From: Holdemania sp. Marseille-P2844
GTDB taxonomy: Bacteria; Bacillota_I; Bacilli_A; Erysipelotrichales; Erysipelotrichaceae
Assembly (NCBI RefSeq): GCF_900120005.1
Contig: NZ_LT635453.1
Span: 248,001 to 312,000, forward strand
Length of the DNA stretch: 64,000 nucleotides
Direction: 5' to 3'
Shown in pieces: positions 51,044 to 55,555 of the stretch. The notes below the pieces were generated by a model that saw only the letters and a list, made by a program, of their open reading frames with translations, was not told the DNA's origin and ran no database searches. The position numbers were made by a program, and so were the translations under genes. Numbering within the stretch: the first letter of the stretch is position 1; the number at the start of each line of letters is the position of its first letter.

Positions 51044-52672
51044 TTATTGCAGCGTGACGTAGCCGTAATACGGTGTGGTTCCTTTCTTCGTGGCATTCTG
51101 GACTTTCTCACTCTTGAGGATCGGTGTGTTATAGCTGAACAGCGGAATGATATAGGCCTGCTGCTCAATCAGGTATTCTTCAGCCGCATGCAGTGCATTC
51201 ATATACTCCGTATGATCCACAATCTTCGCAGCGTCCTCAATCATCTGATCATAAGCGGGATCCTCGACCGCAGGAACGACTTGTTGTCCAATAGTCCACA
51301 AGGTCAAAAACTGGGATGGATCATCGCTGGCGGTGTAGCCGTACCGGGAGAGTTCAAAGTCGCCGTTGTCGATCTGATTATAGAAGACGCCGGATTCCAC
51401 AACCTCCAGTTCGCAGTCGATTCCGATATTTTTCCACATCGCTTCCAAAATCTGCGCAACGTCGGCGTGGATGAAGGAAGAAGAATATTTGTATTTGATT
51501 TTTAACGAATGGGCTTCGTCATAACCGGCTTCTTTCAGCAGCGTCTTCGCCTGTTCCGGGTCATACGCCTGCAGAGTCCCTTTCGCGTCGGCTTCCTTCC
51601 GGAAATCCCCATCTGCGCCGTTAAGTCCGGATGGGACATAGCCGCCTAATGCCTGATAGTATTCCTCAGGGCCCAGGGTGGAAGCCAGAGCTTTTTTGTC
51701 GATGGCAAGGGCCAGTGCTTTCCGGACCCGGCTGTCTTTCAGGCTTTCCGGAGCGGTAGAACCAGAGTTTATTGCGATGAAGTAGGAGGTTGGAGACGGA
51801 ATATTCCAGACTTCGTTCTGGTTTGGATAATTGACGCCAACATCAACCGGAACGTTTAACGCGACATCAACTTCGCCATTTTTATAAGCGAGCGACTGGG
51901 CGTCGCTGTCCGGCATGACCAGAAATGTAATCTGATCCAGCGTGATTTCATCAGCTTTGTAATAGCTGTCATTTTTGACGATGACGGCTTTTTCGTTCTC
52001 ATTGCATTCCGCCAGCTGGTAAGCGCCGATGCTTGGATAACCGGGTTTTAATGCCCATGTGGAATCGTGCGCATCCGCAAAATCTGGTCTTAACGGCGCA
52101 AAGACGTTGCCAGTTAACAGATTCAGGAAAAAGGCGCAGGGTTGTTTCAGAGTTAAAACCAGCGTAGACTCATCCGGCGTCTGGACTCCGTCAATTTCGA
52201 TCGTTTCCGCGTCCAGATCGGTATTTGCCGCAATTTCTTCCGCGCCTTTTAAATAGGTGGTCAGATTGTAAATCGTCAGGGAGTTTTCCGCGCCATAGGT
52301 CAGGTTGCGCAGGATGGCATATTTAAAATCCTGTGAAGTCAGAGCTTTTCCATCACTCCAGGTCAGCCCTTCCTTGATTTTTATAGTATAGGTCAGACCA
52401 TCGTCGCTTACGGTGCAGTTCTCGGCAAGCTCAGGAATGACGTTGCCATTTTCATCCTTGGTCATCAGACTGGAAAGGGTATGGGCAAGAATGTAATTGT
52501 TGACAGTCTCTGTATTGAAACCGGGGTCGAGCGTTGTGATCTGGCCTCCAACCGCGACGACAATGGAATTTTGTTTTGTTTCCGGTTCTGGTGAAGAAAC
52601 ATTAGCGTTGGAAGAACAGGCGGTGTTCAGGATGAATAAGCCTGCGCAGAGAAGCATATTTAATTTTTTCAT
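51044..52672 (-). CDS. Oligopeptide-type ABC substrate-binding lipoprotein (orphan)
   Basis: A 542-residue extracellular binding protein of the OppA/DppA family (SBP_bac_5). The lipoprotein signal ends in NTAC. Family features: TLDPGFNTETVN near the start, GLTWSDGKALTSQDFKYA, and KDSRVRKALALAIDK. No permease or ATPase gene is beside it, so it must use a transporter encoded elsewhere. The ATG follows AAGAAAGGA. It is preceded by a T-box leader, so its expression should rise when an amino acid runs short, and by an upstream frame that overlaps its start. Confidence 0.92.
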   Translation of the reverse strand: MKKLNMLLCAGLFILNTACSSNANVSSPEPETKQNSIVVAVGGQITTLDPGFNTETVNNYILAHTLSSLMTKDENGNVIPELAENCTVSDDGLTYTIKIKEGLTWSDGKALTSQDFKYAILRNLTYGAENSLTIYNLTTYLKGAEEIAANTDLDAETIEIDGVQTPDESTLVLTLKQPCAFFLNLLTGNVFAPLRPDFADAHDSTWALKPGYPSIGAYQLAECNENEKAVIVKNDSYYKADEITLDQITFLVMPDSDAQSLAYKNGEVDVALNVPVDVGVNYPNQNEVWNIPSPTSYFIAINSGSTAPESLKDSRVRKALALAIDKKALASTLGPEEYYQALGGYVPSGLNGADGDFRKEADAKGTLQAYDPEQAKTLLKEAGYDEAHSLKIKYKYSSSFIHADVAQILEAMWKNIGIDCELEVVESGVFYNQIDNGDFELSRYGYTASDDPSQFLTLWTIGQQVVPAVEDPAYDQMIEDAAKIVDHTEYMNALHAAEEYLIEQQAYIIPLFSYNTPILKSEKVQNATKKGTTPYYGYVTLQ

Positions 52673-52793
52673 GGTTATTTTCCTTTCTTAGATGAGTTTC
52701 GTTAAAGATGCAGAAACATCGTCGATAACGTTTCCTGGAATGTTGGATTTCTGATTTCTGTTTATGAATTGATATGTTTACAGCGGGAATCAT
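52602..52793 (-). CDS. Possible upstream ORF in the T-box leader
   Basis: A 63-codon frame starting at ATG 52793, eight bases after GGAG, between the T-box terminator and the binding-protein start, and running past that start in another frame by about 70 bases. The peptide is basic, with several Cys, and matches nothing known. It may modulate translation of the binding protein, or be chance. Confidence 0.3.
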   Translation of the reverse strand: MIPAVNISIHKQKSEIQHSRKRYRRCFCIFNETHLRKENNHEKIKYASLRRLIHPEHRLFFQR

Positions 52794-52827
52794 CAACATC
52801 ACTCCTTTCCAGAATCCTGAGGGAAAA

Positions 52828-53057
52828 TAAAAATCGTCCCCAGCCTATGCTAGAGACGATGGATTCGCGGTGCCACTCTAATTGCCGGTTTATTCCGGCC
52901 TCCTCAAATCCTTAACGCGGATATTCGGACTTTCCTACTGAATTCAGAAAGTCATCTCCCAGATGCGTTTTCATTGGAAACGTGCCGCTGACCTTCCACT
53001 CTGTATCAGCTCGCTGATGGATTTTTCCAATTACTTTTTCTGTTCATTGATTTTATG
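52828..53057 (-). promoter_or_regulatory. T-box leader (tRNA-sensing riboswitch)
   Basis: Read on the minus strand. The conserved T-box AGAGTGGCACCGCG lies at 52866-52879. Stem I carries AGTA (53032-53035) opposite GAA, the AGCGAG and GTGGAAG loop motifs (53010-53015 and 52993-52999), and stem III GACTTTC/GAAAGTC. The terminator (52828-52860) has ATCGTC/GACGAT arms and a U tract. The codon after GAA in the specifier loop is AAC (52967-52969), suggesting asparagine, but neighbouring frames are not excluded. Uncharged tRNA would favour readthrough into the peptide-binding lipoprotein gene. Confidence 0.9.
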
Positions 53058-53063
53058 GTTCTT

Positions 53064-53092
53064 AGTTTAAACGAGAAATGAAAAGATGTCAA
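53064..53092 (-). promoter_or_regulatory. Promoter of the T-box transcript
   Basis: On the minus strand TTGACA (53087-53092) and TAAACT (53064-53069) are 17 bases apart, and transcription would start near 53057. Confidence 0.75.
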
Positions 53093-53767: not shown

Positions 53768-53894
53768 TTATTCGCTGTATTCGACAGGCTTCCAATTATT
53801 AGCCTGCATTTGAGTCCAAATATCATCCCAAGTACTGTTCATTACTTGAATATTTGCTGATGTGTGATAAAGAAGTAGTAGAAGTGTAAAAAAT
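53768..53894 (-). pseudogene. Possible 3' remnant of a host gene cut by the element
   Basis: On the minus strand a frame without a clear start ends with MNSTWDDIWTQMQANNW and a short tail, stopping at 53768. It is open leftward from the element's terminal hairpin; the protein-like composition (Trp-rich) suggests the C-terminus of a real protein whose remainder may lie past the right end of the element. Family not recognised. Confidence 0.35.
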
Positions 53895-53901
53895 TTTGCC
53901 G

Positions 53902-53934
53902 TTCCTATCCGGCGTTTGCGCATTGCGCCGGATA
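53902..53934. repeat. Terminal hairpin at the element's left end
   Basis: CCTATCCGGCG (53902-53912) and CGCCGGATAGG (53924-53934) are perfect inverted copies. The preceding TGCCGTTCCTATC (53895-53907) recurs at 57644-57656 inside the element. It lies just behind the recombinase gene, where the attachment site of such elements is expected; it may also act as its terminator. Confidence 0.6.
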
Positions 53935-53944
53935 GGTCGGGCGG

Positions 53945-55555
53945 TCATTCGGGCAGGTCTACCTTGCCAACGAAAGAGTAATAAATATCAATGTCCTGTC
54001 TGCGTGTGCCGTTCTCGTCATAGCTGCACTCATGCACAACGATTTTCTCCACAAACTCACGCAAAAGGGTAGGGGTAAGTTCTTCAAAGCTGGTGTACTT
54101 GCGGACAACATTCATAAACTTTTCTGCGTTTACCGTGGCTTCCTGCGCTTTGGAAAGCTCTGCCCGGATAGCGGCGGCTCTCTCTTTCAGTTCTTTCTGC
54201 TCGGCTTCATAGTCTGCCGACAGCTCCGTGAAACGCTCGTCTGAAATGCGCCCGGTCACGCTGTCCTCATACAGCCGCTTGAAGATAGCGGATAACTCGC
54301 TGATACGCTTCTCGGCGGCTTCCAGCTCCTTTTTCCTTGCGGCGTTCCTGCGCTTGCCCCCGTCCTCGTTCTGCTCGATCAGCAGCTTCATAAACCGGGC
54401 TTCGTGCTTCGCTGCATAGCTGGTGACTTTCCGCAGATTGTCGGTCACTCCGGCGGTCAACAGGTCGGTGCGGATAAAGTGCGCCGTACAGTCACGGGTA
54501 CGCTTCTTGTAGCTCCCGCAGATATAACAATCCTGCTTGCGGGTGGCGTTCTGGTAACGCTGCTGGTAAAGGACGCTGCCGCAGTCGGCACAAAAGAGTA
54601 TGCCGGAGAATAAGCCCACTTCATCATAGCGGTTCGGGCGTTTGCGCTGCTTGCGTAACTCCTGCACACGCTCCCACATCTGGGTGTCAATGATAGGCTC
54701 ATGGTGGTTCTCGAAAATCGCCTGTTTCTCAATGGGGTTCTCTACGCTGTGCTTGGTCTTGTAGGACGGCTTCTCCGTCTTGAAGTTTACCAGACAGCCC
54801 GTGTACTCCCTGTTTTCAAGGATATGTACCACGGTATTGGTCGCCCACTTGCACTCATAGCCGGGGTGGTAGCGGCGGGTGCTTCCCGTCCGACGGTATT
54901 CCAGCGTTCCCGGCGTGGGGATCTCCTGCTCTGTGAGCATACGGGCTATCTTGGTCGGCCCGTTCCCGGCAAGGCACAAGCTGTAAATCTGCCGCACAAC
55001 AGGGGCGGCTTCCCCGTCAATGATAAAATTTTCGTCCTCGTCCATAAAGTAGCCGTATACGGGTTTGCTCGTGACGGGCTTCCCGCTCATACCCTTAGAC
55101 CGTTTTACTGCTTTGATTTTCTTGCTCGTATCTCTCACCAGCCATTCGTTAAAAATGTTCCGCAGAGGGGCAAAATCATTGTCGCCCTGTGCGCTGTCCA
55201 CTCCGTCATTGATAGCGATAAAGCGGACGCCTTTCTGTGGGAAAATCATTTCCGTATACATTCCCACTTGCAGATAGTTTCGCCCTAACCGTGACATATC
55301 CTTGACGATAACGGTGCCGACTTTTCCGGCTTCAATGTCCGCAAGCATGGCTTGAAAACCGGGTCTTTGGAAGTTCGCCCCAGAATAACCGTCATCTGTG
55401 TACCATTGCAGATTGGAAAAGCCGTTCTGCTTCGCATAGGTTTCAAGAATACGCTTCTGGTTTGAAATAGAATTGCTCTCACCTTGCAGCTCGTCCTCGT
55501 GGGATAATCTCGGATAAAGGGCGGTAATAAGGTTTCGGGTGGTCTGTCTTAACAT
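53945..55555 (-). CDS. Large serine recombinase (TnpX/CTn type integrase)
   Basis: A 536-residue recombinase for excision and integration. The resolvase domain (about 8-155) has YPRLS with the nucleophile Ser18; the recombinase domain (about 160-285) and a zinc ribbon (CADCGSVLY and CYICGSYKKRTRDC) follow, then a coiled-coil of about 370-460. It can insert elements by a two-base staggered exchange, without an IS-type target duplication. Two ATGs are in frame; GGAGG lies between them and six bases before the second, so the start is 55555 rather than 55567. Confidence 0.95.
   Translation of the reverse strand: MLRQTTRNLITALYPRLSHEDELQGESNSISNQKRILETYAKQNGFSNLQWYTDDGYSGANFQRPGFQAMLADIEAGKVGTVIVKDMSRLGRNYLQVGMYTEMIFPQKGVRFIAINDGVDSAQGDNDFAPLRNIFNEWLVRDTSKKIKAVKRSKGMSGKPVTSKPVYGYFMDEDENFIIDGEAAPVVRQIYSLCLAGNGPTKIARMLTEQEIPTPGTLEYRRTGSTRRYHPGYECKWATNTVVHILENREYTGCLVNFKTEKPSYKTKHSVENPIEKQAIFENHHEPIIDTQMWERVQELRKQRKRPNRYDEVGLFSGILFCADCGSVLYQQRYQNATRKQDCYICGSYKKRTRDCTAHFIRTDLLTAGVTDNLRKVTSYAAKHEARFMKLLIEQNEDGGKRRNAARKKELEAAEKRISELSAIFKRLYEDSVTGRISDERFTELSADYEAEQKELKERAAAIRAELSKAQEATVNAEKFMNVVRKYTSFEELTPTLLREFVEKIVVHECSYDENGTRRQDIDIYYSFVGKVDLPE

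Follow-up and report, generated by a model that had tools for sequence, protein, structure and literature searches.

A peptide-binding protein whose gene stands by itself behind a T-box leader raises two questions: which amino acid the leader senses, and which permease the protein serves. Such a gene lies in the 64 kb of DNA analysed here (the window), whose source is, as judged from sequence comparison, a Holdemania species. A first-pass annotation had described the leader as a complete T-box with terminator and promoter, had favoured asparagine as the sensed amino acid, and had proposed that the orphan receptor is lent to a permease encoded elsewhere. All features of this locus given below are on the minus strand.

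The leader is a genuine and complete T-box, in agreement with that description. RF00230 is the sole Rfam family to reach its gathering score within the window, and its match at 53056-52849 covers the complete model (positions 1-219) with 126.1 bits (gathering score 93 bits) and an E value of 1.5e-27. Stem I, the Stem III region and the antiterminator are thereby placed at 52849..53056, as delimited by the covariance model and by the orthologous leaders of Holdemania massiliensis and Holdemania filiformis. A consensus scan gives a sigma-70-type promoter, TTGACA-17 bp-TAAACT, at 53064..53092 (10/12); promoter-like sites around the leader are not more frequent than in shuffled sequence, and TTGACA and TA(A/G/C)ACT are retained in the three orthologous leaders. 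The intrinsic terminator, a 12-bp hairpin of the form ATCGTCTCTAGC-ATAG-GCTGGGGACGAT followed by a T-run, lies at 52860-52833 and shares sequence with the antiterminator's 3' arm, and the T-box bulge UGGC (52872..52875) is complementary to a GCCA end with discriminator G73.

The pairing of both hairpins was followed through eight leaders: that of the window, its two orthologues, the opp leaders from four Holdemania genomes and the leader of the SBP3 operon of the same genome. In these leaders, which are kin and for which the shuffle figures are not probabilities, 98.9% of the terminator pairs are retained and six have changed on both sides (slid controls, 33-50%), while the antiterminator pairs are retained to 100% with three changed on both sides (slid controls, 35-48%). 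Columns 216-220 are common to the antiterminator and the terminator, and the hairpins are thus mutually exclusive; at column 216 a change from C to U is matched both at the antiterminator partner, column 194, and at the terminator partner, column 233. This double compensation is the behaviour that should be expected from a real two-state switch.

The specifier codon of this leader is, by its alignment, CGC for arginine (52965..52967). On the 3' side of the specifier loop the RF00230 model aligns GAA-AA-CGC-A-UCUG, with GAA at 52972-52970, a spacer AA at 52969-52968, A at position N+1 (52964) and the helix UCUG at 52963-52960. The first-pass annotation had stated that the triplet following GAA reads AAC, and those letters are indeed present at 52969-52967, but CGC starts two bases after the GAA-adjacent position proposed there, the two triplets overlapping as AACGC. 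The fit of a covariance model, which the annotation itself had named as the check that could overturn its assignment, yields another codon. Its proviso that the true cognate might be a different amino acid left the necessary room; asparagine as the first choice does not stand. The rule used in TBDB, in which the codon is formed by bases 2-4 counted from the end of the specifier bulge, with alternative frames noted (PMC7778990), gives CGC in frame 0 and ACG and GCA in the side frames, and AAC lies outside all three. The UGGC bulge fits G73 of tRNA-Arg(ACG), as it should if UGGN matches the cognate discriminator; the side frames ACG (Thr) and GCA (Ala) were rejected, their tRNAs carrying A73, which does not fit UGGC. 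However, tRNA-Asn also has G73, so that the bulge alone cannot separate arginine from asparagine. Because the anticodon GCG was not seen among the tRNAs examined, reading of CGC would need I34 in tRNA-Arg(ACG).

Both ways of finding the specifier were calibrated on the organism's own genome, in which 18 of the 23 T-boxes have a clear target gene (valS, metS, alaS, serS, cysS, leuS, tyrS, thrS, trpS, ileS, hisS, lysS, pheS, asnS, metN, metQ, brnQ and trpX). The model register, in which a single base separates the codon from the lower helix, is correct in 18/18, where hisS was scored as correct by accepting GAC (Asp) on the assumption that aspS follows hisS, and where the registers of leaders L021-L023, like the five-base helix chosen for trpS, were set by hand; the triplet after GAA is correct in 9/18. 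In the hisS leader (L017:1501-1714), GAC in the model register overlaps the His codon CAC (GACAC). The two-base spacer of the window leader recurs in the leaders of valS (GAA-CA-GUC) and metQ (GAA-AG-AUG), both of which are read correctly. Taking the triplet straight after GAA thus mis-assigns half of the checkable T-boxes in the Holdemania genome.

The sister leaders of the same genome give a similar picture. Two of these on C10, one heading a complete oppA-oppA2-BCDF operon and the other an operon in which an M14 carboxypeptidase accompanies an ABC importer for amino acids, both read GAA-G-CGC-A and are without AAC; their identity to the window leader is 61-66%, as compared with a genome mean of 38%, and the CGC leaders form a single clade with a support of 0.91. 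Relative to these sisters (GAAG with UGGU), the window clade (GAAAA with UGGC) has one additional base on each strand of the specifier loop, located above the codon, so that the distance from codon to lower helix is unchanged. The segment GAAAACGCAUCUG is identical in the three orthologous leaders. The C10 operon for the amino-acid importer is the SBP3 operon (L070:3279-7395, minus strand); it codes for a fused SBP and permease, a GlnQ-like ATPase and a zinc carboxypeptidase of the M14 type, and looks as if it combined peptide trimming with arginine import.

A leader specific for asparagine would draw on the position of AAC directly behind GAA, which does not vary among the three orthologous leaders, and on the bulge, since G73 of tRNA-Asn fits UGGC and the asnS leader uses UGGC too. 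Yet AAC stands three bases above the lower helix, as opposed to one base in the 18 calibrated leaders, and neither AAC nor AAU occupies the position one base above the helix, where an arginine codon does; the genuine asnS leader reads AAC-A-CUCU, in the usual register. With the model register, the one-base distance, the two sister leaders and the calibration all giving CGC, and with the rule that yields AAC failing so often, we regard asparagine specificity as highly improbable. The overlap of the two triplets could also allow the leader to answer to both tRNA-Asn and tRNA-Arg, which share G73, and the orphan clade has kept the two additional bases that give rise to AAC. There is a precedent in the lysK T-box of Bacillus cereus, which is partly induced by lowered charging of Asn-tRNA (PMC2916919), and alternative frames are recognized in TBDB, although a slip of two bases goes beyond those that it allows (PMC7778990). 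The geometry and the clade favour CGC alone, and we give a dual response the same very small chance as asparagine by itself.

The gene behind the arginine leader (51044..52672) encodes an OppA-type protein of 542 aa that matches SBP_bac_5 (PF00496) over the whole length of the family with 251.9 bits; its PDB relatives are OppA, OppA3, MppA and DppE, with PrgZ also among the matches, and it falls below the NCBIfam equivalog cut-offs. Its N-terminus, inspected by eye, has a hydrophobic stretch and then a cysteine (LNTA-C), an imperfect lipobox with an unusual Asn at -3, and the protein is a probable lipoprotein. No permease gene adjoins it: it is flanked on one side by a siderophore ABC operon of FecCD/SstD-like type, which is convergent with it, and on the opposite side by the gene of a small lipoprotein and by a mobile element whose first gene encodes a serine recombinase. 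The earlier view of an orphan peptide-binding protein, probably a lipoprotein, is upheld by family and local gene content. Orthologues of the protein are present in H. massiliensis (86% identical) and H. filiformis (91%), and in H. massiliensis the conservation extends to the promoter, the leader and the siderophore neighbours, at 78% over 6.2 kb; by these comparisons the arrangement of T-box and orphan OppA is conserved within Holdemania. The H. massiliensis match stops at about 53810, and the mobile element, with the serine recombinase and further genes, starts about 1 kb upstream of the leader (window about 53810-53945 onward).

Between the terminator and oppA, and overlapping the oppA start, is a possible small ORF of 65 aa (52602..52799), with the core RKRYRRC and a good ribosome-binding site, AAAGGAGTG, preceding its ATG. 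We considered this arginine-rich ORF as a second sensor; the core KRYRRC has only synonymous changes in three species, but over the whole ORF there are 6 synonymous and 11 non-synonymous changes, and the case is not convincing. In H. filiformis, which has one A fewer, the ORF runs in frame into oppA, with a stop soon after the usual oppA ATG.

Which permease the receptor serves is indicated by a comparison within the genome, with its 12 genes for SBP_bac_5 proteins and its two permeases of the OppC type. Four of the binding proteins form one subfamily with 57-61% identity, comprising the window OppA, two from the C10 operon and a fourth at C17:306 kb; the remaining eight, at C17:385-415 kb, are 21-31% identical to the window OppA. 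The C10 operon, itself behind an Arg T-box, encodes OppB, OppC, OppD and OppF together with its two OppA proteins, which are 57-60% identical to that of the window, and the sole other OppC is at C17:398 kb, amid the distant cluster. Given this relatedness and the setting of the second OppC, the C10 OppBCDF is very probably the partner on which the window OppA docks; the proposal that the receptor is lent to a permease encoded elsewhere is thus probably right, and the question of which Opp permease is used finds a likely answer. It is unlikely, but less so than an asparagine response, that the T-box senses arginine as described while OppA works with the C17 permease or serves as a sensor or signalling receptor. 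The window OppA has no physical link to a permease, and some OppA-like proteins, such as PrgZ, serve pheromone uptake and signalling; on the other hand, the C17 binding proteins are a distant subfamily, whereas the C10 proteins share both close identity and arginine regulation with the window gene. Elsewhere in the genome, the T-box at L018:1501-1756 precedes another SBP_bac_5 gene, at C17:385 kb, and its specifier readings differ (ACU, Thr, by the model; CUG, Leu, by the helix rule; AAC as the triplet after GAC), and the T-box at L008:1501-1759 precedes an SBP_bac_3 amino-acid receptor and reads CAC (His), with a UGGA bulge that would fit U73.

We therefore favour, with a probability of about 0.9, a transcription-attenuating arginine T-box (CGC, read by tRNA-Arg ACG/ICG) that controls an OppA feeding an OppBCDF encoded elsewhere. 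When arginine is short, uncharged tRNA-Arg would pair with CGC in Stem I and, by its GCCA end, with the UGGC bulge, and would hold the antiterminator, so that RNA polymerase could read into oppA; charged tRNA-Arg would leave the terminator to form. The OppA so made would capture peptides, probably containing arginine, and hand them to the C10 OppBCDF. The T-box, its register, the exclusive covarying hairpins, the sister leaders, the gene families and their conservation are computed features, from which we infer induction by arginine starvation through the response to Arg-tRNA, the peptide ligand and the shared permease.

The subfamily member at C17:306 kb is without a T-box and has instead a lysine riboswitch (79.7 bits; L071:12037-12207, minus strand) upstream of its gene (L071:10327-11997). 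The riboswitch is present in three other Holdemania genomes with 78-83 bits, and in H. massiliensis and H. filiformis a distance of about 13 kb separates the sibling and the opp operon. Lysine-bound riboswitches of this kind turn expression off. With uncharged Arg-tRNA, the two receptor loci that have an Arg T-box would be switched on, and the sibling with the lysine riboswitch would be off when lysine is plentiful. Arginine- and lysine-sensing switches over one OppA family suggest a shared importer for peptides containing arginine or lysine. More tentatively, at slightly less than even odds, OppBCDF could be a single importer of basic peptides that is served by several interchangeable receptors, each controlled by a separate RNA sensor, the limiting amino acid choosing the receptor. 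No argininosuccinate synthase scored above the cut-off in the genome (there is one sub-threshold partial match) and arginine deiminase was not found in it, although the genome is 96.6% complete and such absences are not proof; argS is without a T-box. From its gene content this Holdemania seems unable to make arginine, and the picture fits an arginine-dependent organism that scavenges basic peptides.

The leader resembles the arginine class of RF00230 in its full model match, Stem I specifier loop, UGGN antiterminator, intrinsic terminator and amino-acid transporter target, and differs in its lone OppA-type target, the two-base spacer above the codon and a CGC that would have to be read by ICG. 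The protein, for its part, resembles OppA, MppA and DppE in family match and PDB relatives, but its permease is not encoded alongside and an amino-acid-specific RNA controls the lone receptor gene. A further parallel, TrpXYZ of Streptococcus suis, likewise has a T-box on the substrate-binding protein of an importer and is induced by amino-acid limitation, but it imports the free amino acid, forms one operon and is specific for Trp (PMC9382623). The lysine riboswitch (RF00168) on the C17 sibling controls the same protein family through an RNA sensor of a basic amino acid, but binds free lysine and switches off, whereas the tRNA sensor of the window gene switches on. Neither a T-box nor a lysine riboswitch was found on homologous OppA genes among 10 homologues from related genera, and in the 900 bases upstream of 80 loci a T-box core was found in Holdemania only, apart from one distant match at -844. 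No paper was found that describes a T-box or a lysine riboswitch on OppA, and a receptor family controlled by both Arg T-boxes and a Lys riboswitch was not met in the literature covered, which did not include the two main T-box surveys.

The T-box is thus a known kind of regulator with an informative set of targets. The ligand of an OppA-type protein is not readable from its sequence, and peptide-binding proteins are hard to match to ligands in this way. RNA leaders may serve as labels, since the arginine and lysine switches on the OppA siblings predict the peptides that each receptor would take, and the window locus offers a clean case for the study of specificity and receptor sharing in a gut bacterium.
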